A stretch of DNA of 32,721 nucleotides. Origin: Acidobacteriota bacterium. Lineage in GTDB: Bacteria; Acidobacteriota; JAAYUB01. The position numbers and the translations under genes were made by a program. How positions within the stretch are numbered: the stretch's first letter is position 1; the number at the start of each line of letters is the position of its first letter. Positions 17,371-31,541 of the stretch are shown here, piece by piece. Location of the stretch: NCBI GenBank assembly GCA_012517875.1, contig JAAYUB010000048.1:1-32721 (forward strand), in the 5' to 3' direction. The notes under the pieces are model-generated. The model saw nothing but the letters and a program-made list of their open reading frames with translations. It searched no databases and was not told where the DNA came from.

Positions 17371-18989
17371 CGGCAGGCCGCGGCTGGGCATTCTGGGAGG
17401 GCCTGGGCGAGAACAGGCGCTTTGCCGCGCTGATGCTGGCGCTGGCGGTCTTCTACCTCTCGTTCATCGGCTGGTACGGCTTCGTCGGTCCCGACGAGCC
17501 GCGCTACGCCCGCATCGCCGAGGAAATGATGCACCGCGGCGACTGGGTGCTCCCTACCCTGAAGGGTTCCGCGTGGCTGGAGAAACCGCCGCTGCTCTAT
17601 TGGATGGCCATGGTCTCATACCGCGTGTTCGGGGTGAACGAGTTCGCCGCGCGGCTGCCGTCGGTTCTGCTGGCGCTCGGCACCATCGCCACGCTGTACC
17701 TGGTGCTGAAGCGGACGTTCGGCGAGCGGATGGCCTTCAACGCAGCGCTGGCACTCGGCACCAGCGTACTGTTCCTCGGCTTCGCCGGCGGGGGCACCAC
17801 GGACATGCCGTTCACCGCGTGCGTGTCCGTGGGCCTGCTGCTGCTCTGGCGGTATCTGACCGTCGAGCCGGCGCCCCCGCCCACGCTGCTGTGGGCCGCC
17901 GGCGCCGTCTTCGGTCTGGCCGTCCTGGCCAAGGGGCCGTTGGGCCTGGTGCTGCCGGTGCTGGCCGTCTATCCGTACCTCATGGTCACCGGCCGGGTGG
18001 AGCGATTGACGCTGCCGCGGCTGGCCGTGGGCGCATTGGTGCTGCTGGCGGTGGCGGCGCCCTGGTACATCCTCGTGTACCGGCGGGAGGGCTTCTTCTT
18101 CATCCTGGTGTTCTTCGTCAACCACCACCTGGGTCGCTTCTTCACTTCGATCCATCACCACACCCGGCCGTTCTACTTCTACCTGCCGGTGATTCTGATC
18201 GGCCTCCTTCCCTGGACGTTCTTCCTGCTCCTGTGGCGGGACCGCCGGCCGCTCTGGCGGCGCTGGCGGCAGGACCTGCGGGCCGACGGCCTGCTGTTCT
18301 TCCTCGCCTGGCTGGCGCTGCCGCTGGTGTTCTTCTCGCTGTCTTCAGCCAAGCTTCCCGGTTACATCCTGCCGCTGTTCCCGGCGCTGGCGGTGCTCAT
18401 CGGCTGGAGCATGGAGGAGGCCTTCGCCCCGGGCCGCGACTGGCGGCCGTTCGCGTGGGGCGCGGCGGCGGTGACGGCGGTGCTGGCGGTGGGGGGTCCG
18501 CTCTTCTTCCACATCCGCTTCCACCGGGTGGAACTCGGGCTGCTGGCCGTCGCTCTGGCGCTGCCGGGCCTGCTGGGCTTCATCTGGCTCATCCGCCGCG
18601 GCCGGCCGGACCGGGCCATCCTGTCGCTGGCGTTCGGCGTGTTCCTGGTGGTGGCCGGAGGCGCCCCCTTCCTGCTGCCGACGGTGGAACCGTTTTTCTC
18701 AGGACGCCGCATCTGCCGACTGGCCATGCCGTGGACCGGATCGGACAACCCGCTGATCATCTACCGGCATTTTCATCACAGCCACGAGTATTACACCGAC
18801 TACACCTGCACGCCGAATGTCGAGAAACCGGCCGAGCTGGCCACCCTGCTGGGGTCGCGCCGCCGAGCGGCCTACCTGCTGACCGAGGAGAAGGCCGTGG
18901 GCGATCTCGACCAGGTGCCCGGCTGGCGGCACACGGTCGTGGCCGAAGCCGGCCGCTCGGTGCTGGTGAAACTGGAGCGTACGCCATGA
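17367..18989 (+). CDS. GT39/ArnT-like membrane glycosyltransferase
   Basis: This 540-residue polytopic membrane protein belongs to the dolichyl-phosphate-mannose/ArnT-like (GT-C, family 39) glycosyltransferases. The first periplasmic loop carries VGPDEPRYARIAEEM (about 41-55), the acidic D-E motif typical of ArnT relatives. It is followed by KPPLLYW and FAARLPSVL, which are standard in the family. About ten to twelve hydrophobic helices follow, and the soluble C terminus is short. These enzymes transfer a sugar from a polyprenyl-phosphate donor to lipid A, protein or polysaccharide on the outer face of the inner membrane. The acceptor cannot be told here. The GTG start overlaps the nadC stop by four bases, and the stop overlaps the next ATG as ATGA. 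The link to NAD genes seems positional only. Confidence 0.88.
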   Translation: MTAGRGWAFWEGLGENRRFAALMLALAVFYLSFIGWYGFVGPDEPRYARIAEEMMHRGDWVLPTLKGSAWLEKPPLLYWMAMVSYRVFGVNEFAARLPSVLLALGTIATLYLVLKRTFGERMAFNAALALGTSVLFLGFAGGGTTDMPFTACVSVGLLLLWRYLTVEPAPPPTLLWAAGAVFGLAVLAKGPLGLVLPVLAVYPYLMVTGRVERLTLPRLAVGALVLLAVAAPWYILVYRREGFFFILVFFVNHHLGRFFTSIHHHTRPFYFYLPVILIGLLPWTFFLLLWRDRRPLWRRWRQDLRADGLLFFLAWLALPLVFFSLSSAKLPGYILPLFPALAVLIGWSMEEAFAPGRDWRPFAWGAAAVTAVLAVGGPLFFHIRFHRVELGLLAVALALPGLLGFIWLIRRGRPDRAILSLAFGVFLVVAGGAPFLLPTVEPFFSGRRICRLAMPWTGSDNPLIIYRHFHHSHEYYTDYTCTPNVEKPAELATLLGSRRRAAYLLTEEKAVGDLDQVPGWRHTVVAEAGRSVLVKLERTP

Positions 18990-19921
18990 TCTACCCGCCG
19001 CCGCTCGCCGCCGGCAGCCGCATTCGCGTCGTGGTGCCGGCTTCGCCGGTCAAATTGCCGTACATGGAGCGGGGGCTGGCCTGGCTGGCGGCCCAGGGCT
19101 GGCAGCCGGTCTGGTCCGGCCGCGGCACGACGGCGCATTTCTACACCGCCGGCCCCGACGACGAACGGGCCGCCGAGCTCGTGGCCGCGCTCGGCGACCC
19201 CGACGCCGATGCCGTCTGGTGCGCCCGCGGCGGGTACGGCTGCGCCCGGCTGCTGCCCGCTCTGGACCGGGCTCTGCCCCGGCCGCCCGCGCGGCCCAAG
19301 GCGGTGGTGGGCTGCTCCGACGCCACGGCGCTGCTGATCCACCTGCTGCAGCGCTGGGGCTGGGTGGTCTATCACGGACCGATGGTGGCCGGCGACCTGG
19401 GCCGCGATCCGGCGGGCGCCGACGTCGCGTACCTGACCGGACTGCTGGCCGGCGCGCCGCCGCGCGATACCGTGTCGGTCGAACCGTTGACGGTGCTCCG
19501 GACGGGGCCCGCCGTGACGGCGCCGCTGACGGGCGGCTGCCTGTCGGTGTTGGCGGCCACCCTGGGGACGCCCGACGAGTGGGACACCCGCGGCCGGATC
19601 CTCTTCCTGGAGGACACCCAGATCAAGCCCTACCAGCTCGATCGGCTGCTGGGCCAGCTCCGCGCGGCCGGGAAGTTCGAGGAGGCGGCCGGGGTGGTTT
19701 TCGGCGAGATGACGGGTTGCACACAACACCCGGAGCAGGGTTACACGATCCAGGAGGCGCTGTGCCACGCGCTCGGCGACATCGGTTGCCCGGTGCTCTT
19801 CGGCCTGCCGTCGGGCCACTGCGAGCGACCCAGCCTGGTGCTGGCGCTGGGGGCCGGCTACCGTCTGGATCCGGTCGCGAGACGACTTTGCCTCGAGGAT
19901 GACTGGCTATGTCCACGATGA
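18986..19921 (+). CDS. LD-carboxypeptidase (LdcA/MccF, peptidase S66 family)
   Basis: This 311-residue serine peptidase of family S66 is predicted to cut the terminal D-alanine from murein tetrapeptides during recycling. The nucleophile is Ser111 in VVGCSDATALL, Glu209 lies in ILFLEDTQIKPYQLDR, and His278 lies in GLPSGHCE. These form the expected Ser-Glu-His triad. WCARGGYGCARLL (about 78-90) is another family hallmark. MccF-type immunity proteins share this fold, but the neighbouring mpl strongly favours peptidoglycan recycling. There is no signal peptide, as expected for a cytoplasmic enzyme. The ATG overlaps the upstream stop (ATGA), and the next gene begins 13 bases before this one ends. 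Confidence 0.92.
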   Translation: MIYPPPLAAGSRIRVVVPASPVKLPYMERGLAWLAAQGWQPVWSGRGTTAHFYTAGPDDERAAELVAALGDPDADAVWCARGGYGCARLLPALDRALPRPPARPKAVVGCSDATALLIHLLQRWGWVVYHGPMVAGDLGRDPAGADVAYLTGLLAGAPPRDTVSVEPLTVLRTGPAVTAPLTGGCLSVLAATLGTPDEWDTRGRILFLEDTQIKPYQLDRLLGQLRAAGKFEEAAGVVFGEMTGCTQHPEQGYTIQEALCHALGDIGCPVLFGLPSGHCERPSLVLALGAGYRLDPVARRLCLEDDWLCPR

Positions 19922-21354
19922 TCATGGGCCGGACGGTGCAGCGGATCCACCTGCTGGGCGTCTGCGGGACGGCGATGGCATCGCTGGCGGTGCTGCTCCG
20001 GTCATCCGGCTACACGGTGACGGGTTCCGACGCGGACGTCTATCCGCCCATGAGCGACTTCCTGGCGGCCGAGGGGATCCCGGTGCGCTCCGGCTACGCG
20101 CCGGCCAACCTGAACCCGCCGCCCGATCTGGTGGTGGTGGGCAACGCCATCGCCCGCGGCAACCCGGAGCTGGAACATGCGCTGGCCGCCGGGCTGCCGT
20201 ACCTGTCCATGCCCGAGGTGGTCAAGCTGCTGCTCCTGCCGGGCAAGACGCCGGTGGTGGTCACCGGAACCCACGGCAAGACCACCACCTCGGCCATGGC
20301 CGCCTGGGCGCTGACGCAACTGGGATTCGACCCCTCCTTCCTGGTCGGCGGGATTCCGCTGGACTTCGGACGGAGCGCCGCCCTGGGCCGCGGCCCCCAC
20401 TTCGTCATCGAGGGGGATGAGTACGACACCGCCTATTTCGACAAGGCGCCCAAGTTTTTCCACTACCGTCCGACGGTCCTGGTGATCACCGGCATCGAGT
20501 ACGACCACGCCGACATCTACCCCGACCTCGCGTCCATCGTGCTCCAGTTCCGCCGCCTCGTGAACACGGTGCCGTCCAACGGCCTGGTGGTGTACCACGC
20601 CGACTGCCCGCGCGCCGCCGAGGTGGCGGCGCACGCGCCGTGCCCGACGGTCTCGTTCGGTTTCGGCGGCGGGGCCGACTGGCAGGCCGAGTCGGTCCGG
20701 GCCGAAGACGGACGGACGCGGTTCGCCGTCCGCCACCGTGGCGCGGCGCTCGGCGAGGCGGCACTGACCGTCCCCGGGCGGTACAACGTCCTGAACGCCC
20801 TGGCCGTCTGGGCGGTGCTCCACCACGCCGGCGCGCCGCCGGAACGCGTAGCCGGCGCGCTGGCGTCGTTCCGCGGCGTGGAGCGCCGCATGACCCTGCG
20901 CGGCGAAGTCGGCGGCGCGCTGCTCTACGACGATTTTGCCCACCACCCCACGGCGATCGCAGCGACGCTGGCGGGAGCGCGGCTGCGGTTTCCCGACCGG
21001 CGGATCGCGGTGGTGTTCGAGCCGCGCTCCTGGACCTGCCGCAAGCGCGTCCACCAGGCGGCAATGGCCCGCTGCTTCGCCGAGGCCGATGTGGTGATTC
21101 TCGCCGACGTCTTCCGCAAGGAGGCGCTCCCTGCGGAAGACCGCTTCGATCCGGTCCGGGCGGTGGCCGACATGCGCGCCGCCGGGCAGGATGCCCACTT
21201 CCTGCCCACCGTGGCCCAGATCGTGCCGTTCCTTCGCCGCTGGCTGAAACCCGGCGATGTGGCCATCATCATGTCCAATGGCGGGTTCGATGACATTCAC
21301 CGCCGCATCCTCGAATCCAGCGGGAGAGAAGGCGATGCTTCCACTCAACCGTAA
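19909..21354 (+). CDS. mpl: UDP-N-acetylmuramate:L-Ala-gamma-D-Glu-meso-DAP ligase Mpl
   Basis: Mpl attaches the recycled tripeptide directly to UDP-MurNAc, bypassing MurC, MurD and MurE. The 481-residue protein shows the Mur ligase plan. An N-terminal UDP-binding domain carries IHLLGVCGTAMASLA, a form typical of Mpl rather than MurC. The central ATPase domain has TGTHGKTTTSAM (about 119-130) and EGDEYDTAYFDKAPKFFHY, a strong Mpl marker, followed by EYDHADIY. The C-terminal domain has DDFAHHPTAI and FEPRSWTCRK. The ATG at 19909 has GAGGA nine bases upstream, and the later Met codons do not. The overlap with the LD-carboxypeptidase gene joins two consecutive recycling steps. The presence of Mpl implies a meso-diaminopimelate wall. 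Confidence 0.95.
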   Translation: MSTMIMGRTVQRIHLLGVCGTAMASLAVLLRSSGYTVTGSDADVYPPMSDFLAAEGIPVRSGYAPANLNPPPDLVVVGNAIARGNPELEHALAAGLPYLSMPEVVKLLLLPGKTPVVVTGTHGKTTTSAMAAWALTQLGFDPSFLVGGIPLDFGRSAALGRGPHFVIEGDEYDTAYFDKAPKFFHYRPTVLVITGIEYDHADIYPDLASIVLQFRRLVNTVPSNGLVVYHADCPRAAEVAAHAPCPTVSFGFGGGADWQAESVRAEDGRTRFAVRHRGAALGEAALTVPGRYNVLNALAVWAVLHHAGAPPERVAGALASFRGVERRMTLRGEVGGALLYDDFAHHPTAIAATLAGARLRFPDRRIAVVFEPRSWTCRKRVHQAAMARCFAEADVVILADVFRKEALPAEDRFDPVRAVADMRAAGQDAHFLPTVAQIVPFLRRWLKPGDVAIIMSNGGFDDIHRRILESSGREGDASTQP

Positions 21355-23238: not shown

Positions 23239-24132
23239 TCATTTGCCCACGTTGATTCGGTGGGTCAGCTCGCTGAGGATATTGAAATTAATGAAGAAGA
23301 TGATGTTCTTCAGGTCCTTCTTGAACTTGGTGACGTAGCGCGCGAACTTGTCCTCGTCGTTGAAATTGAGGACCGACTCGAACTCCACCACCTCCTCGGC
23401 CAGCTCCAGCAGCAGGTGGAGAATGCTCCGGTAGGCCGCCTTGACGCGGATCATTTCGGCCACGTCCCATCTCGTCGGCCGAAACTTGGTGGGGATGGTG
23501 TCAATGGCGCGGATCACCTCGGACACCACCTCCTGGATGAGCTCCGGGATTTCCTGGAAGTAAGTCTTCTCGTACTTTTCCGGGTGGTCCAGACGACCCA
23601 CCGATTTGGTCTTGAGCACCTCGTACTGGTCCATGAGAGACAGGACATAGAGGTTCAGTCCCTTATACGGCAGCTCCCGCCGCTCCAGGCTCATGAAGCA
23701 GCGGCCGATGTAAATCTTGTCCGAATAGTGCAGGTTGATGTCCTTCAGGGAGGCGGTGTAGAGCTTGAGCTCCATCACCTTTTCCAGCTCGTTGAAATAC
23801 TTGAGCCGCGCCAGCAGCAGCCCGTTGTTTTGACTGAGGAAGTAGGACGAGCGCTCCAACACCGCGGAGTCAAGGATCAGGTTTTCGACGAGGCGCTCCC
23901 GAAGGTAGAGCAGGATGCCGGAATTGTCCTCGATGAGCTTCTGGATCCGCGCCTCGCAGTTGTTGTCCGCCGGCTGGAGCGCGGGCGAGAGCAGGCACAG
24001 GCCGCCGTCGGTCATGGGGAGTTCCAGATAGATGTTGCGGCGGATTTTGTCCTGCAGGTTGTCGAAGTGGACGCAACGGGGCGGAGGCAGGTCTTCCTTC
24101 CTGAGTCCGGCCAGGTACTGGACCACGGCCAT
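23239..24132 (-). CDS. Unrecognised 297-residue helical protein
   Basis: I do not recognise a family. The product is 297 residues, cytoplasmic by appearance (no signal peptide or membrane helix), rich in Leu, Glu and Lys, and mostly predicted helical. Visible stretches include HFDNLQDKIRRNIYLELP near the N terminus and FLSQNNGLLLARLKYFNEL, YLRERLVENLILDS and NFNILSELTHRINVGK at the C-terminal end. The start ATG at 24132 has GGAGG six bases upstream. The 3' third is visibly richer in A and T than the neighbours. The gene is isolated, and both sides are filled with word-like repeats. It points away from the pspA operon, so it could be an independently inserted gene, but it could also be a regulator or helper of that operon. 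Confidence 0.8.
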   Translation of the reverse strand: MAVVQYLAGLRKEDLPPPRCVHFDNLQDKIRRNIYLELPMTDGGLCLLSPALQPADNNCEARIQKLIEDNSGILLYLRERLVENLILDSAVLERSSYFLSQNNGLLLARLKYFNELEKVMELKLYTASLKDINLHYSDKIYIGRCFMSLERRELPYKGLNLYVLSLMDQYEVLKTKSVGRLDHPEKYEKTYFQEIPELIQEVVSEVIRAIDTIPTKFRPTRWDVAEMIRVKAAYRSILHLLLELAEEVVEFESVLNFNDEDKFARYVTKFKKDLKNIIFFINFNILSELTHRINVGK

Positions 24133-24441: not shown

Positions 24442-24470
24442 TTGACACCGTCCGGCGCGTGGGGTACAAT
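24442..24470 (+). promoter_or_regulatory. Near-consensus sigma-70 promoter of the pspA operon
   Basis: TTGACA (24442-24447), a 17-bp spacer and TACAAT (24465-24470, five of six) form the best promoter in the window. Transcription should start near 24477, leaving a leader of about 100 bases before the pspA ATG at 24576. Housekeeping control looks more likely than a sigma-54 system, which usually drives psp operons in proteobacteria. Confidence 0.85.
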
Positions 24471-24575
24471 GCCACCACTGTCCGATGCAACACCCGAGTG
24501 CCGCGGTTCGGCCGTTCCCGCCGCTGCGGCCGGAATCGAACCCATCGTCCCGCGAGGGAAAGGAGAGCCGCTCAC

Positions 24576-25346
24576 ATGTTCAAACGTATCATGACGCTGA
24601 TCCGGGGTTTCGTGGGCCTGTTTGTCTCCGGATTGGAGAAGTCGAACCCGCAGGCCCTGATTGAGGCGGAAAAAGAAAACTTGCGCAAGCAGATCGCGCG
24701 CTTCAATGACAACCTGGCCACCCATGCCGGCTTTGTCGAACGCCTGATGCGGCAGGTCAAGTCGCTGGAGCAAAAAGAGCGGGAGCTCACCGCCAAGATC
24801 GCCGCCAACCTCAAGGCAGGCAACCGCGCCGTGGCCGGCCAGATGGCCCTGGAGCTGCAGACGGTCAAGGGGCAGCTCGAGGAGAACCGCGAGCAGCTGG
24901 TCACCGCCGACGAGACCTTCAAGAAGCTGGTCAAGTCCCGCGACGTGGCGGTGCAGGAGGCCCGGGGCAAGATCGAAAAGCTGAAGCGGATGCTGTCCGA
25001 GACCGAGATGCTTGAGGCGCAAGCGGAACTTCAGGAGATGGCCGCCGGCATGATCAGCGAGATCGGCGGTTCCGGCGACACCCTGAACCGCGTCGAGGAG
25101 TACCTGTCCGAGCGTCGCGACAAGGCCGCCGGCCGCGCCCGCGTGGCCTCCAGCGGCATTGATATCCAGGAAGTCGAACTCAAGGAAGCCGAGCAGGCCG
25201 CCCTGGCCGAACAGGCGCTGGCCGAGTTCGAGGTGGCCTACGGCTTCAAGACCCCGGCGGCCGAAGCGGCCGCCCCCGCAACCGCCCCGGCGGACGCCGC
25301 GCCCGAGCCCCAGCCCCAGAAGGAACTGGGGCCGCAGGGTCAGTGA
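24576..25346 (+). CDS. pspA: PspA/IM30 (ESCRT-III-like) membrane-maintenance protein
   Basis: PspA/IM30 proteins polymerise on the inner face of damaged membranes and preserve the proton motive force. This one has 256 residues. The amphipathic N-terminal helix (MFKRIMTLIRGFVGLFVSG) is followed by the NPQALIEAEKENLRKQI region and a very long coiled coil to about residue 215 (KSLEQKERELTAKIAANLKAG lies within it). The family GSG/DTLNRVEEYL segment is also present. The C-terminal 30 residues are Ala/Pro/Glu-rich and probably disordered. The ATG at 24576 has AGGAG upstream. The frame is open further back, but that part overlaps the promoter. No PspF, PspB or PspC is nearby, so this is not a classic psp operon. 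It leads a six-gene operon with an ABC importer and an AAA+ protein. Confidence 0.93.
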   Translation: MFKRIMTLIRGFVGLFVSGLEKSNPQALIEAEKENLRKQIARFNDNLATHAGFVERLMRQVKSLEQKERELTAKIAANLKAGNRAVAGQMALELQTVKGQLEENREQLVTADETFKKLVKSRDVAVQEARGKIEKLKRMLSETEMLEAQAELQEMAAGMISEIGGSGDTLNRVEEYLSERRDKAAGRARVASSGIDIQEVELKEAEQAALAEQALAEFEVAYGFKTPAAEAAAPATAPADAAPEPQPQKELGPQGQ

Positions 25347-25400: not shown

Positions 25401-27125
25401 ATGACGACGGAGAAAGTCGGACCCACTGCGTTGGGCAAGATCGTGATCGTGCTGTTCATCCTGGGCTGTCTGGCTGCTGCCGGCTGGTTCTTCCGGGACA
25501 CCATCTTTCCCGGCCGGGACGGCGGCGGAACCGTGGACATGGACAAATTCCGCGAACAGCAGGGCGGTGCCGAGGCGATGGATCCAACTGGCATCACCAC
25601 GGTGACCGAGTACAAGTACATTCCCGCCCAGAAGCTGCCTCCCGTCAAGGGGACCAGCGCGTACAAGTGGGACGCGGGCAAGGTGGTGGAGTTCCCCATC
25701 AACGTTTGGATCGGCTGGCTGCCTATCGTCGCCGCAAACAACGGCTTCGCGCCCAGCACCGAGAGCGTCTTCTATAAAAAATACGGCTTCAAGGTGAACC
25801 TGAAGCTCATCGATGACCCGGTGTCGGCCCGTGACGCCTACGCGGCGGGCAACAGCCACATCCTGTGGGGCACCCTCGACATGATGGCGCTCTTCGCCCC
25901 CGAGCTGATGAAGGACTCGCGCACCGCGCCCCGCATCTACCAGCAGATCGACTGGTCCAACGGCGGCGACGGCATCGTGGTCCGCTCCAAGATCGCCTCG
26001 GTGCGCGACCTCAAGGGCCGGACCATCGTCTACGCCCAGAACTCCCCGTCGCAGTACTTCATCAACAATCTGCTGCTCAACGCCGGCATCCAGCCCGGCG
26101 AGGTCAAGCATAAGTTCACCTCCACCGCGTTCGAGGCCGCCGCGGCCTTTGTCGCCGACCCGAGCATCGACGCCTGCGTCTCCTGGGCGCCCGACATTTA
26201 CAACATCCCCGAGAAGGTCAAGAACACCCGGATCCTGACCACCACCGCCGAGGCGAACAAGCTGATCGCCGACGTCTGGGCGGCCCGGGCCGACTTCGCC
26301 AAGGACCACCCCGAGATCATCGAGGGCCTGGTGGCGGGCATCTTCGAGGGGATGCGGATGCTCAAGGACGACACCCAGAAAGCCCGCGCCTTCCAGTGGA
26401 TGGCCGAGGGGTACGGCATGGCCGTGGACGAGATCCGCGCCATGGAAGCCGACGCCCACACCACCAACTTCGCCGAGAACAAGGAGTTCTTCCTCAACGC
26501 CAACTCGCCGTCCAACTTCGAGCGGACCTGGAAGAACATCACCTTCGTTTACAAGGAGCTGGGCCTGCTCGACACGCCGGTCCGCTTCGACGAGGTGATG
26601 GACTTCTCCGTCCTCCAGAAGCTCGAGGCCAAGGGCACCTTTGCCGACATGAAGAACGAGTACGTCACCCAGTTCTCGCCCACCACCTACTCGAAGGTCG
26701 CTGCCGAAAAGCCCATCCTCACCCAAACCATCCGAATCAACTTCTACCCCAACTCCTCGAACATCTTCGAGCCGCAGCACGACGAGTTCGGCAACGCGCT
26801 GGCGAACACCCTGTACGATCCCAACGCCACCGCCACCCTGGAGAAAGTCGGCCGGCTGGCGGGCCAGTACGAGCGCGCGGTGATCGCCGTGGTGGGGCAC
26901 ACCGACTCCTCGATGAAGGGGAAGGTGCCGCGGAACGAGGTGGAGCGCCTGTCGCTGGACCGCGCCAACTCGGTCAAGAACGCACTGGTCAAGAAGTACA
27001 ACTTCGATCCGAACAAGTTCGTTATCCAGGGCAAGGCGTGGGACGAACCCGCCGATGCCAACGATCCCATGAACCAGGCGTTGAACCGGCGAGTCGAGAT
27101 CTCGGTCTATCCGCCGGAGAAGTAA
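25401..27125 (+). CDS. Membrane-tethered ABC substrate-binding protein fused to an OmpA-like domain
   Basis: This 574-residue protein has three parts. A single N-terminal hydrophobic segment (about 12-30) lacks a good signal-peptidase site. A Cys at 23 (ILGC) is only a poor lipobox, so I read it as a signal anchor. From about 95 to 425 lies a periplasmic binding domain of the NitT/TauT/SsuA type (FPINVWIGWLPIVAANNGF, then GNSHILWGTLD, DLKGRTIVYAQNSP, ACVSWAPDIY). The C-terminal OmpA-like domain (about 440-572) keeps both peptidoglycan contacts, Asp in VVGHTD (502) and Arg in LSLDRANSV (521), plus NRRVEI. The protein could therefore span from membrane to cell wall and serve the permease and ATPase that follow. 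The ligand is unknown. AAGGAGG lies five bases before the ATG. Confidence 0.9.
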   Translation: MTTEKVGPTALGKIVIVLFILGCLAAAGWFFRDTIFPGRDGGGTVDMDKFREQQGGAEAMDPTGITTVTEYKYIPAQKLPPVKGTSAYKWDAGKVVEFPINVWIGWLPIVAANNGFAPSTESVFYKKYGFKVNLKLIDDPVSARDAYAAGNSHILWGTLDMMALFAPELMKDSRTAPRIYQQIDWSNGGDGIVVRSKIASVRDLKGRTIVYAQNSPSQYFINNLLLNAGIQPGEVKHKFTSTAFEAAAAFVADPSIDACVSWAPDIYNIPEKVKNTRILTTTAEANKLIADVWAARADFAKDHPEIIEGLVAGIFEGMRMLKDDTQKARAFQWMAEGYGMAVDEIRAMEADAHTTNFAENKEFFLNANSPSNFERTWKNITFVYKELGLLDTPVRFDEVMDFSVLQKLEAKGTFADMKNEYVTQFSPTTYSKVAAEKPILTQTIRINFYPNSSNIFEPQHDEFGNALANTLYDPNATATLEKVGRLAGQYERAVIAVVGHTDSSMKGKVPRNEVERLSLDRANSVKNALVKKYNFDPNKFVIQGKAWDEPADANDPMNQALNRRVEISVYPPEK

Positions 27126-27135
27126 GACCTGCGGT

Positions 27136-27972
27136 ATGAAAGCATTCCTGTCCAGTTTCCGGCTGCGGGGGCCCCAGGGCTTCCTCAGCATCCGGGAGTC
27201 CCTCGGGACCCCCCTTAAAATCGTCCTGGGGGCGATACCCATCGTGCTGATCTTTCTCCGCTGGCACCTGGCCACCGCCGGAGCGGCCGAAGAGCGCCTC
27301 ATCTCCCCCACGATCCTCCCGTCGCCGGGCGAGGTGATCCGGTCGTTCCCGTCGCTCTGGTTCCAGGCGGAGCTGAGCCGCAGCGCCCTCACCAGCGCGC
27401 TGCGCGTGGTGATCGGGTTCGGCGTGGCCTGGGTGATCGCGTTTCCGCTGGGCATTTTCATGGGCGCCTTCACGAAGGTGGGCGCGACGTTCAGCCCGGT
27501 GATGGTCTTCCTCGGCTACCTGCCCATCCCGGCCCTCGTGCCTCTGACCATGAGCCTGTTCGGCGTGGACGAGCTGCAGAAGGTCATGTTCCTGGCGCTG
27601 GCGTTCTTCATCTACCTGCTGCCCCTGTTCGTCCGCGCGGTGAGCGACGTCGACAACGTCTTTCTGCAGACCGCTTACACTCTGGGCGCCACGCGCTGGC
27701 AGACGCTGCGGCGGGTGCTGCTGCCGGTGGCGCTGCCGCGGATCGTCCACGCCATGCGCCTCGGCTTCGGCGTGGGCTGGACCTACATCATCCTGGCCGA
27801 GATGGTCGCCGCCGAACGGGGCCTGGGCAACATCATCATCGTGGCCCAGCGCCGCGGGCCCCGGGAGCACATCTACCTTGTGCTGGTGGTGATCGTGATG
27901 ATCGCCTACCTCACCGACAAGTTCTGGGTGGTGCTCAGCCGCTACCTCTTCCCGTACCAGGAGGCGCGATGA
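27136..27972 (+). CDS. SsuC/TauC-family ABC transporter permease
   Basis: This 278-residue inner-membrane permease of the BPD_transp_1 fold has about six helices. ISPTILPSPGEVIRSF is the usual opening of nitrate/sulfonate/taurine permeases. The cytoplasmic EAA loop is clear: FLQTAYTLGATRWQTLRRV followed by LLPVALPRIVHAMRLG. It contacts the ATPase. The C-terminal helices end in LTDKFWVVLSRYLFPY. The ribosome site before the ATG at 27136 is weak and the gap from the previous stop is 10 bp, so coupled translation is likely. With the tethered binding protein and the ATPase it completes an importer. Substrates of this family include sulfonates, nitrate, thiamine precursors and aromatic acids, so the substrate is left open. 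Confidence 0.93.
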   Translation: MKAFLSSFRLRGPQGFLSIRESLGTPLKIVLGAIPIVLIFLRWHLATAGAAEERLISPTILPSPGEVIRSFPSLWFQAELSRSALTSALRVVIGFGVAWVIAFPLGIFMGAFTKVGATFSPVMVFLGYLPIPALVPLTMSLFGVDELQKVMFLALAFFIYLLPLFVRAVSDVDNVFLQTAYTLGATRWQTLRRVLLPVALPRIVHAMRLGFGVGWTYIILAEMVAAERGLGNIIIVAQRRGPREHIYLVLVVIVMIAYLTDKFWVVLSRYLFPYQEAR

Positions 27973-28817
27973 GCGTTCCCCCCGAAAAGAAGCTCCCGCC
28001 CGTGATCGAGTTCCGCGACGTGGCCAAGGTGTTCAACCCGGGCACGCCGCGCGAATACAAGGCTCTGGAACACCTCAATTTCTGCATCGAGGACCTGCCG
28101 GGGAAGGGCGAATTCATCACCATCCTGGGTCCGTCGGGCTGCGGCAAGAGCACGGCGCTCAACCTCCTGGCCGGCTTCCAGGAGGTGTGGCCCCCCACCG
28201 CCGGCGAGATCCTGGTACGCGGCCAGCCGGTGACGGCTCCGGGCGTGGACCGAGGTATGGTCTTTCAGAAGTACAGCTCCTTCCCCCACCTCACGGTGCG
28301 CCAGAACGTCCGCTTCGGCATGGAGCTGAACCGGCGCCGGGAGGGCCTGGGGGAAGACGAGATCGAGGGCCGGGCCATGGACTGGATCGGGAAGGTAGGC
28401 CTGGCGCCGCACGTCGACAAATACCCCCACCAGCTCTCCGGCGGCCAGCAGCAGCGCGTGGCGCTGGCGCGCACCCTCGTGTGCCGCCCGAAGATCATCC
28501 TCATGGACGAGCCGTTCTCGGCGCTGGATGAGCCCACCCGGCTGGAGATGCAGAGCCTGGTGGTGGAGCTGTGGCAGCAGGTGGAGGCCACCGTGCTGCT
28601 GGTGACCCACTCCATCATCGAGGCGGTCTACCTCGGCGACCGCGTCTGGATCTTCTCCCAGGCGCCGGGGCGGATCGCGCGGGAAATCACCCAGACGCCG
28701 GCGGCGGTGCCGGGCGAGCCGCCCAACGTGCTCCAGCAGCAGCCGGCGTTCCTGGAGGCGGTGGAACGGGTCTCGGCGATCTTCCTCAAAATCGAACAAG
28801 GTGAAGCGGAGAGCTGA
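27969..28817 (+). CDS. SsuB/TauB-family ABC transporter ATP-binding protein
   Basis: This 282-residue ATPase is the partner of the preceding permease. Motifs are Walker A GPSGCGKS (54-61), Q-loop [14 protein letters not shown] (Gln100), signature [16 protein letters not shown] (155-170), Walker [14 protein letters not shown] (176-188) and the H-loop [15 protein letters not shown] (His214). The DEPFSALD and SQAPGRI segments are typical of nitrate/sulfonate importers. The C-terminal 40 residues form an extra helix-rich tail. The ATG overlaps the permease stop (ATGA), with GGAGG upstream. The stop overlaps the next ATG (TGATG), which ties the following membrane protein to the transporter at the translational level. 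Confidence 0.94.
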
Positions 28818-29680
28818 TGGCCAAGGACCTGCTGGGCTACTGGGACTACGTCAAGGCCGCCTTCCACTGGAAGGTGGATATCCCGTGGCTGGGCAAGATG
28901 CCGCTCAACAAGGTGATGCTGGCGGGCCTCGTCATCCTCGGGTTCATCAACCCGGGCTTTTGGCTCCTGGGTGCGGCGGCCGAGGCGGGTTTCCTGCTGC
29001 TGGTGGCGGGCAACGACCGGTTTCAGAACCTGGTGAAGGCCACCCGACTGCAGGCGTCCGCGGAGAACTGGGCCGAGCGCCAGGCGGCGATGCTGACCGC
29101 ACTGGACGGACGGTCGCAAGAGCGCTACCGGCGGCTGCTCGAGACGGGCGCCGCGGTGCTTCACAGCTCGGGGCCGCTGGCGGGCAAGGACACCGCCGGC
29201 GATCTGCGCGCCGGCAGCCTGAACCAGCTCCACTGGATGTTCCTCAAGCTCCTCGTGTCGCAGGGGCGCATCCGCGACATCCTGGCGCAGACCTCGAAGC
29301 AGGACCTGGAGCGTGAGATCGATGACCTGACCCAGCGCCTGGCCAGGGAGGACCCGGCCTCGGCGGTGGCCCGCTCGGTGCAGGGGACGCTGGACATTCA
29401 GAAGCGGCGCCTGGGCAACATCCTCCAGGCCGAGTCGAGCCTGCAGGTGATCGAGGCGGAGCTGGACCGGATCGAGAAGCATGTGACGCTGCTCCGCGAG
29501 GAGGCGCTGGTCACGAGCGACCCGGCGCAGCTCTCCGACCGGCTCGACGGGGTGATGGAGTCGCTCCAGGGCACCTCGAAGTGGATGGCCGAGAACAACG
29601 AGCTTTTCGGCAGCCTCGAGGAGGTGGGCATGCCGCCCACCCTCATCGACCGCGCACTGCGGGACAAGGAGCAGGAGTGA
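28817..29680 (+). CDS. Unrecognised membrane protein with coiled-coil tail
   Basis: I do not recognise a named family for this 287-residue protein. A short N-terminal stretch (WDYVKAAFHWKVDIPWLG) leads to one hydrophobic hairpin of two helices (about 32-65; VMLAGLVILGFINPGFWLLG). The remaining 220 residues are cytoplasmic-looking, helical and rich in Leu, Gln, Arg and Glu, with heptad-like stretches near 165-185 and 195-245 (SLQVIEAELDRIEKHVTLL). It starts one base inside the ATPase stop (TGATG) and ends four bases before the AAA+ gene. This position suggests an adaptor between the transporter or PspA at the membrane and the AAA+ ATPase. That is inference from gene order only. Confidence 0.85.
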   Translation: MAKDLLGYWDYVKAAFHWKVDIPWLGKMPLNKVMLAGLVILGFINPGFWLLGAAAEAGFLLLVAGNDRFQNLVKATRLQASAENWAERQAAMLTALDGRSQERYRRLLETGAAVLHSSGPLAGKDTAGDLRAGSLNQLHWMFLKLLVSQGRIRDILAQTSKQDLEREIDDLTQRLAREDPASAVARSVQGTLDIQKRRLGNILQAESSLQVIEAELDRIEKHVTLLREEALVTSDPAQLSDRLDGVMESLQGTSKWMAENNELFGSLEEVGMPPTLIDRALRDKEQE

Positions 29681-29684
29681 CGCC

Positions 29685-31541
29685 ATGGGCAAGGTGACAC
29701 TGCCGGACTGGGCGCAGGGCATGCGGGAAATCTTCCGGGCGGAGACGGTTTCGCAGTTCATCCTGCACGGTAACGTCAACGACCTGGTGCCCCACCGCGA
29801 GGACGACGCGCTGCGCTTTCTGACCCTGGGCGACTACCTGGCCGAGGTGCTGTTCCAGCCCTTCGACGTGGTGCTGTTCTACGACCGCGGCCGCGGCATC
29901 CGCCTGGCCAAGGGGGCGGATCACTTCCACGCCTTCCTCAAGGTCATGGACAAGTTCCACGGCTCGCGCTACGCCTCCGACGCCGCCGCCGGCCGCAACC
30001 CCGACCGGGCGCTGGACTCGCCGGGGCTGCTGCCGCGGTCGCCGGCCCAGGCGCTGGAGCTCATCGACCGGTTTCTCAACGGCGTCGTGGCCGCCTCGCG
30101 CAACCCGAAGGCGGCCGGCCCGCGCTCGGTGGCGGTGGTGGTGCCGTTCGCCCACTTCATCGTGCCGCGGGGCGAGTCGCTGTACCTGAGCGGCGAGATC
30201 GGGGCCAACCTCATCAAGATCCGCAACTGGGCCGAGGATCCGGCCATCATGGGCGCCAACATCGCCACGGTGCTGGTGAGCGAGAACCTGCTGGACCTGA
30301 GCGCCTACCTCACCGACAGCCCCGCCAGCGGCAAGATCCAGGTGCCCATGCCCGGCGCCGACGACATCCGCGAATACGTGGAGCGGCTGGTGGCCGGCGA
30401 GCCCGACTTCGCCGCGCTGTGTGAGGTGGACGTGCCGACGCTGGCGGCCAAGCTGGTGGGGCTGAACCGCGTCCAGGTGCGCAACCTGGTGCTGCGGGCG
30501 GTGCGCAACCAGGAGAAGCTGACGCTCAAGTACCTGACGCGCCTCAAGAAGGAGACCATCGAGAAGGAGTCCATGGGGCGGCTGGAGTTCATCGAGTCGC
30601 GCCGCACCCTGGACGACGTGGCCGGCCATCACGAGGCCAAGCGCTGGCTGCGCGAGGACGCCCAGCTCATCCGGCGGGGCGTGGCCAACGCTCTCCCCAT
30701 GGGCTACCTCATCACCGGCCGCATCGGCACCGGCAAAACGTGGCTCGTGGAGTGCTTTGCCGGCGAGTGCGGCATCCCCATGGTGGAGCTGAAGAACTTC
30801 CGCGAGAAGTGGGTGGGCGCCACCGAGGGGAACCTGGAGAAGATTTTCACCATCCTCCACGCCCTGGGGCAGGTGATGGTGTTTGTCGACGAGGCCGACC
30901 AGGCCACGGGCCGCCGCGGCGGCGGCGAGGGGGACTCAGGCCTGTCGGGCCGCGTGTATGGGATGCTGGCCAAGGAGATGGCCGACACGGCCAACCGCGG
31001 CCGGATTTTCTGGATCTTCGCCACCAGCCGACCCGACATGGTGGAGGTGGACCTCAAGCGTCAGGGCCGTCTCGACGTGCACATCCCGCTGTTTCCCCCC
31101 GTCGATCCCGCCGACAAACGGGAGCTGTTTCTGGCCATGGCCCGCAAGCTCCGGCTGGACTTGCGGCCCGAGGACATGCCCGAGCTTGCCTCCGATCAGC
31201 CGGTGAGCGGCAACGAGCTCGAGGGACTGCTGGTGCGCACCGTCCGCCGCCACGCCCTCCAGAGCAGCCCAGTCGTCCCGCCTGCGAGCAGCCCAGTCGT
31301 CCCGCCTGAGGGTAAACCCATCGCCCCGCCCCCCGCCGGCTCGATGAAATCCCTGGCCGAGATCCTCCGGGACGAAGTGGCCGGGTTCCGTCCGTCGGCC
31401 CACACGGCGCGCCTCGAGATGATGGACCTGCTGGCGGTGAAGGAGTGCACCGACGACCGGTTCCTCCCGCCGCGATTCCGGGAGCTCTCGCCCGAGGAGA
31501 TCGATCGCCGCCTCGCCGCCCTCACCTTCGGCGGGAGATAA
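29685..31541 (+). CDS. AAA+ ATPase with a P-loop-less N-terminal half
   Basis: This 618-residue protein has one complete AAA+ module at about 310-490. It shows Walker A GRIGTGKT (345-352), the segment KWVGATEGNLEKIF, Walker B VMVFVDEAD (397-405), sensor 1 in IFATSRPDM with Ser448 where most relatives have Asn, and arginine-finger candidates Arg459 and Arg462 in KRQGRLD. The first 300 residues look like a second, degenerate AAA-like domain without P-loop (QFILHGNVNDLVP, VAVVVPFAHFIVP, VLVSENLLDLS). That layout recalls Ycf46-type proteins. A Pro-rich linker with a duplicated SSPVVPP unit (about 527-542) leads to a C-terminal helical tail. AGGAG is seven bases before the ATG. Its target is unknown, and PspA or the membrane protein are the obvious candidates by context. 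Confidence 0.88.
   Translation: MGKVTLPDWAQGMREIFRAETVSQFILHGNVNDLVPHREDDALRFLTLGDYLAEVLFQPFDVVLFYDRGRGIRLAKGADHFHAFLKVMDKFHGSRYASDAAAGRNPDRALDSPGLLPRSPAQALELIDRFLNGVVAASRNPKAAGPRSVAVVVPFAHFIVPRGESLYLSGEIGANLIKIRNWAEDPAIMGANIATVLVSENLLDLSAYLTDSPASGKIQVPMPGADDIREYVERLVAGEPDFAALCEVDVPTLAAKLVGLNRVQVRNLVLRAVRNQEKLTLKYLTRLKKETIEKESMGRLEFIESRRTLDDVAGHHEAKRWLREDAQLIRRGVANALPMGYLITGRIGTGKTWLVECFAGECGIPMVELKNFREKWVGATEGNLEKIFTILHALGQVMVFVDEADQATGRRGGGEGDSGLSGRVYGMLAKEMADTANRGRIFWIFATSRPDMVEVDLKRQGRLDVHIPLFPPVDPADKRELFLAMARKLRLDLRPEDMPELASDQPVSGNELEGLLVRTVRRHALQSSPVVPPASSPVVPPEGKPIAPPPAGSMKSLAEILRDEVAGFRPSAHTARLEMMDLLAVKECTDDRFLPPRFRELSPEEIDRRLAALTFGGR
31263..31310 (+). repeat. Two tandem 24-bp units in the AAA+ gene linker
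   Basis: Units 31263-31286 and 31287-31310 differ at one base. Each encodes SSPVVPP plus Ala or Glu, in frame. The core GTCCCGCCTG resembles the hairpin arm at 22895-22905, so the linker may have grown from a dispersed intergenic word. Confidence 0.85.

Follow-up and report, generated by a model that had tools for sequence, protein, structure and literature searches.

Organization of the locus

We analysed a stretch of DNA of 32,721 nucleotides (the window), positions 1 to 32,721 of the forward strand of contig JAAYUB010000048.1 from an Acidobacteriota bacterium (assembly GCA_012517875.1). The subject of this study is a protein of 574 amino acids (aa) in which a hydrophobic helix, a solute-binding domain, and an OmpA domain are combined. 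Its open reading frame (ORF) at positions 25401-27125 is unbroken from ATG to TAA. The gene is the second of a six-gene operon in the order PspA, 574-aa protein, permease, ATPase, membrane coiled-coil protein, and AAA+ ATPase, with intergenic gaps of 54, 10, -4, -1, and 4 bases. The following features were assigned to the protein:

25401..27125, + strand: 574-aa protein with transmembrane (TM) helix, solute-binding domain, and OmpA domain (profile matches, alignment, AlphaFold2)
25428..25490, + strand: predicted signal-anchor helix, residues 10-30 (hydropathy, AlphaFold2, relatives)
25491..25682, + strand: tether, residues 31-94, of which 36-75 are predicted to be disordered (AlphaFold2, length comparison)
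25683..26630, + strand: TauA/SsuA-fold solute-binding domain, residues ~95-410, with conserved cleft acids D160, D184, D190, and D291 (fold match, profile alignment)
26718..27110, + strand: OmpA peptidoglycan-binding domain, residues ~440-570, with D502 at codon 26904-26906 and R521 at codon 26961-26963 (Pfam, 3td3 alignment, relatives)

An AlphaFold2 model built from 46 aligned relatives had a mean predicted local distance difference test score (pLDDT) of 85.9 and a predicted template modelling score of 0.79. It separates the helix (10-30), the binding domain (~95-410), and the OmpA domain (~440-570); the single clearly disordered stretch comprises residues 36-75 (pLDDT below 50). The middle domain matched the profiles NMT1 (E 2.7e-8), SsuA_fam (3e-15), and, as the best NCBIfam match, TIGR03427 (1e-21), and its fold matched TauA (6ssy, Foldseek E 4e-16) as well as SsuA, NrtA, and CmpA. 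With both the fold and an NMT1-type profile present, the NitT/TauT (SsuA/TauA) type of binding domain, suggested earlier from the DNA letters alone (the original prediction), was confirmed.

Wall contacts, membrane anchor, and tether

To compare the protein with its homologues, 79 loci from a scan of a genome collection and further loci from whole-genome searches of Acidobacteriota were collected, yielding 98 near-complete relatives that were aligned. Taxon assignments are those of the records, which are mostly metagenome bins, and some labels (e.g. Burkholderiales) are doubtful. The C-terminal domain matched Pfam PF00691 (1.7e-9) and Omp38 of A. baumannii (3td3, 6e-14). According to the alignment with 3td3, both contacts to the meso-diaminopimelate (meso-DAP) of peptidoglycan are kept: Asp502 occurs in 97 of the 98 relatives and Arg521 in all of them. 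The one relative without Asp502 may be L099, which has an interrupted reading frame. The OmpA domain of the 574-aa protein is predicted to bind peptidoglycan, and both contacts proposed in the original prediction are retained rather than lost among homologues. Wall-recycling genes are located about 3 kb upstream of the operon (17573-21354), encoding an LD-carboxypeptidase (S66) domain protein followed by the murein-peptide ligase Mpl. As Mpl acts on meso-DAP murein peptides, its presence in the window fits the kind of wall to which OmpA domains bind.

At the other end of the protein, the most hydrophobic stretch comprises residues 10-28, with a Kyte-Doolittle mean of 2.34, and AlphaFold2 places a helix at residues 10-30; the hydrophobic segment had been noted before at 12-30. 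An N-terminal hydrophobic segment is present in 93 of the 98 relatives, the remaining ones being mostly truncated or mis-started. Processing as a lipoprotein at Cys23 was rejected: position 23 is Cys in only 27 relatives and Leu in 50, Leu or Val replaces Cys in most, and the residue lies within an unbroken hydrophobic stretch, so that no lipobox is present and the signal-anchor reading stands. Since no conserved cleavage site follows the helix among the anchored copies, we infer that it is an uncleaved signal anchor. Anchoring at both membrane and wall, as originally predicted, is thus supported and conserved across the relatives. Tethering of binding proteins by a membrane helix or by fusion to the permease occurs in other systems (GlnPQ, OpuA).

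The length of the tether, measured between the helix end and Thr66, ranges from about 26 to 54 residues across the anchored copies. In contrast, the binding domain (297-307 residues) and the distance from Asp401 to Phe448 (47 residues in nearly all) are near-constant. Because a disordered chain of such length spans a wide range of distances, the tether would be no ruler. The conserved element, as judged from the alignment, is the binding-domain/OmpA unit on a loose tether. This argues against the fixed spacing between membrane and wall that had been proposed and that is the core of the idea of a mechanical sensor.

The ligand cleft

TauA binds the amine of taurine via Glu106, Thr132, and Asp205 and the sulfonate via Gln30 and main-chain groups of Gly61, Gly79, and Thr132 (PMC6906117). 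These positions were mapped by profile alignment, using a chain offset of 21 that was derived by hand from Leu204-Asp205. On the amine side, Glu106 and Asp205 correspond to Asp190 and Asp291, and the cleft residue Trp176 corresponds to Trp262. The sulfonate-side comparison covers the alignable positions, Gln30 lying outside the printed alignment, and all of these are altered (Ser60 to Asp139, Gly61 to Pro140, Gly79 to Thr158, Thr132 to Pro216); an identity as a taurine-specific TauA was rejected on these residues. TauA nevertheless provides the closest fold, and the permease and ATPase resemble TauC and TauB. The system differs from TauABC further in the fused membrane helix and OmpA domain and in an operon without sulfur-metabolism genes.

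Asp190, Asp291, Trp262, and Thr158 each occur in 98 of 98 relatives. Compared with the remainder of the binding domain, the seven mapped cleft positions show higher conservation (Fisher test for invariance, p 0.007; Mann-Whitney, p 8e-5); these p values serve as a guide only, as the relatives are not independent. The cleft is thus essentially invariant. Further fixed acids in the binding domain are Asp160 (98/98) and Asp184 (97/98), and fixed acids outnumber fixed bases by 7 to 1. Given the conserved acids, the cleft should favour a small cation, and the ligand is most likely a small cationic (amine- or guanidinium-bearing) solute.

TIGR03427 is named 'putative urea ABC transporter', where ABC denotes ATP-binding cassette, and is associated with urea/guanidine carboxylase. 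The motif D-[WYF]-S-x-G-x-D and the position of Asp291 are common to the binding domain and the full member L108. However, the score of 77.5 bits is far below the curated cut-off of 333.9, excluding membership, and the operon has no carboxylase gene. For carboxylases formerly named after urea, guanidine is mostly the preferred substrate, and ABC transporters import guanidine (PMC12186494); guanidino compounds are therefore sensible candidates, no more. A search of the window and of five loci detected no guanidine riboswitch at the gathering threshold, and no publication found by literature search states the ligand of this binding protein.

The operon and its distribution

The five genes surrounding the one encoding the binding protein were assigned as follows:

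24576..25346, + strand: PspA/IM30-family protein, 256 aa, ATG start MFKRIMTLIRG (Pfam PF04012; start and position shared with relatives)
27136..27972, + strand: ABC permease, TauC/SaoP-like, with EAA-loop pattern G184...LLP197 (Pfam PF00528, 4.9e-18)
27969..28817, + strand: ABC ATPase, TauB/SaoA-like, with intact Walker A, LSGGQ, Walker B, and H-loop (profiles, motifs)
28817..29680, + strand: 287-aa protein with membrane hairpin and long helices, without Pfam or NCBIfam family (model, profile searches)
29685..31541, + strand: AAA+ ATPase with a classical (Cdc48-like) C-terminal half and an unmatched N-terminal half (Pfam, motifs)

The match of PspA to PF04012 (E 6.5e-9) was obtained on a longer ORF (24459-25346). 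The C-terminal AAA domain of the AAA+ ATPase is active by its motifs, and the N-terminal ~300 residues had no Pfam match. For the 287-aa coiled-coil protein, a confident helical model (pLDDT 88) gave weak BAR-like matches in the PDB (E above 0.07). Homology to Snf7/ESCRT-III or PspA was not recovered by Pfam, profile comparison, or Foldseek, and a match to 2pms concerns pneumococcal surface protein A, an unrelated coiled coil. The protein possibly represents a new family. Upstream of the operon, a 297-aa protein without Pfam or NCBIfam match is encoded on the - strand (23239-24132); among the fetched loci it occurs only in the nearest relative, L021.

A PspA/AAA+/ABC operon type that includes a fusion of a solute-binding (PBPB) domain to OmpA was described by Ravi et al. 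2024 (example OGG56892.1), who consider OmpA a possible wall binder and the PBPB domain a possible receptor of the transported solute. For operons of this kind, PspA/AAA+ were proposed to act in membrane remodelling (PMC11237479). By this published description, PspA, AAA+, ABC ATPase, permease, and the binding protein-OmpA fusion occur together there as they do here. Hence, architecture and operon are not new. Two further components were compared with that account: its TM helical protein is named a Snf7 homologue, and the 287-aa TM helical protein present here gave no such match by Pfam, profile comparison, or Foldseek; its AAA+ protein carries an inactive N-terminal AAA copy, and the N-terminal ~300 residues here gave no Pfam match. 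The passage of that paper on the operon does not mention the anchor, the tether, the cleft, or pairs of free and anchored copies (PMC11237479), and our literature search for a described wall-tethered binding protein yielded only this source. To this account we add three features of the protein, namely a signal anchor that is conserved, a tether of variable length, and an acidic cleft that is invariant, together with the pairs of free and anchored copies and the counts of co-occurrence.

The operon set recurs in Acidobacteriota, Planctomycetota, Riflebacteria, Elusimicrobiota, Sumerlaeota (BRC1), Krumholzibacteriota, Myxococcota, and others. It is kept in most loci with enough flanking sequence; a few loci, e.g. 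L063, are without PspA and AAA+ in the visible flank. In eight genomes the permease is not located beside the gene, and in seven of these an orthologue is encoded elsewhere (L029, L066, L070, L071, L073, L081, L087). We therefore rejected a binding protein operating without a transporter. None was found in the genome of L084, possibly due to genome incompleteness. In a reverse search of the 297 sampled Acidobacteriota genomes, all 15 genomes with a strong match to the coiled-coil protein also carried the binding protein. Mean pairwise identity in 29 complete loci (406 pairs) was 65.5% for the binding protein, 60.3% for the ATPase, 54.9% for AAA+, 53.9% for PspA, 53.6% for the permease, and 36.7% for the coiled-coil protein. 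The first rank of the binding protein is weakened by the choice of loci, as relatives were found with the binding protein as query.

In Riflebacteria and Ozemobacteraceae, a second copy of the gene follows pspA, so that both copies flank it (L052, L054-L059, L076). The first copies are anchored, and the second copies begin with an apparent cleavable signal peptide, e.g. MKRVLFVLLALLLTVNFAFAQEA in L055. In the tree, anchored and cleavable-signal copies form separate clades with support of 100 and 99, indicating one duplication followed by long retention of both copies.

Proposed function of the system

We propose, with a probability of about 0.58, that the 574-aa protein is a wall-docked, tethered binding protein of an ABC importer for a small cationic solute that is joined to PspA/AAA+ envelope maintenance. 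This proposal draws on the domains, the anchor, the conserved wall contacts and cleft acids, the intact transporter motifs, and the conservation of the operon. As the solute-binding part of a type I ABC importer, the protein would be held at the inner membrane by the flexible tether while the OmpA domain would dock onto peptidoglycan in vivo. Solute would thus be captured near the wall and within reach of the protein's own permease, the presumed direction of transport being inward. The importer would then be coupled to PspA, AAA+, and the coiled-coil protein in one envelope-maintenance system. This system probably supplies or senses a solute, the level of which would report or relieve stress on the membrane or the wall. 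Several points weigh against this proposal. The operon is not accompanied by a metabolic gene that names a nutrient, and the ligand class depends on an alignment at roughly 18-25% identity. The binding protein exceeded the permease in conservation in all 406 pairs from the 29 loci, which is unusual for a simple importer. The 'urea' name of TIGR03427 is weak evidence because this family also occurs in other OmpA-containing clusters. Finally, transport, wall binding, and contact with PspA are predictions from sequence.

The best surviving alternative, which we consider possible though clearly less probable, is a ligand-gated envelope sensor. The wall-docked domain would report the state of solute or wall via the permease and ATPase, acting as a receptor, to PspA and AAA+, which would remodel or seal the membrane. 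Three observations would be consistent with such a sensor: on average, no other of the six operon proteins is as conserved as the binding protein; its usual company is PspA and AAA+ and not metabolic genes; and relatives keep anchored and free copies, which would fit a division between an anchored role and a delivery role. However, the hydrolysis motifs of the ATPase are complete and the coupling loop of the permease is normal, and most lineages have a single copy, which would need to serve both jobs. Somewhat more doubtful is a wider view in which an ESCRT-like bacterial machine for membrane repair receives its input from the binding protein, so that envelope damage would be sensed chemically and not mechanically in many phyla. 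A ligand caught at the peptidoglycan, e.g. cationic or wall-derived, would then be signalled or transported via the ABC proteins to PspA and AAA+.

The original prediction favoured a sensor of wall distance or tension over a simple transporter part: two anchors would fix the spacing, and stretch would alter the state of the protein. Both anchors are real and conserved, and the layout of a single N-terminal membrane helix, linker, and C-terminal OmpA domain recalls MotB/PomB, with OmpA domains matching in sequence. This part of the likeness to MotB stood. In contrast to MotB/PomB, a binding domain is inserted between helix and OmpA, ABC, PspA, and AAA+ genes take the place of a MotA-like partner, and MotB-family NCBIfam models scored 20-42 bits against cut-offs of 250 or more, so a MotB/PomB stator was rejected. 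The disordered membrane-side tether, varying by tens of residues, the invariant cleft, the free copies persisting in Riflebacteria, and the intact permease and ATPase, with the permease encoded elsewhere in seven of the eight genomes that do not have it beside the gene, render a mechanical sensor very improbable. Least probable of all is a scaffold linking the ABC transporter or a PspA complex to the wall, with the binding domain as a structural relic: double anchoring and the frequent company of membrane-remodelling genes would suit it, but greater conservation in the cleft than elsewhere in the domain (Mann-Whitney p 8e-5) is unexpected for a relic.

The proposed wall-docked importer belongs to an operon that is spread over many little-studied phyla and whose binding protein is unusually well conserved. 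Knowing the ligand would explain the link of a transporter to PspA and an AAA+ ATPase. Given the predicted cleft residues, wall contacts, and tether, this question of ligand and coupling can be put to the test directly.

Variant copies and clusters

Three metagenome contigs carry the binding protein in two frames or pieces (L099, 3589-5299; L064, 5503-7214; L013, 1477-3080), due to either assembly error or real decay. A separate duplicate in L088 (Planctomycetota) carries a lipobox (LMTGC), and in L143 (Acidobacteriota) the anchored fusion adjoins a free binding protein. Clusters of another composition, with two fusions, a free TIGR03427-like protein, permease, and ATPase, occur in L141 (G197:C6), L142 (G016:C211), and L140 (Vibrio rotiferianus pAM7). 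The TIGR03427 'urea' proteins may belong partly to such variant clusters. L141 and L142 also encode an AAA+ protein of the same family (homologous to P0005), and a vWA protein is encoded in L142 and L140. The 'phosphate ABC transporter substrate-binding/OmpA family protein' of the Vibrio plasmid (WP_143694361.1) likewise combines a binding domain with OmpA beside an ABC transporter. The best Vibrio match has ~25% identity, and the plasmid cluster, unlike the operon in the window, also encodes a binding protein that is separate and free, along with the vWA and 'toxic anion resistance' genes.
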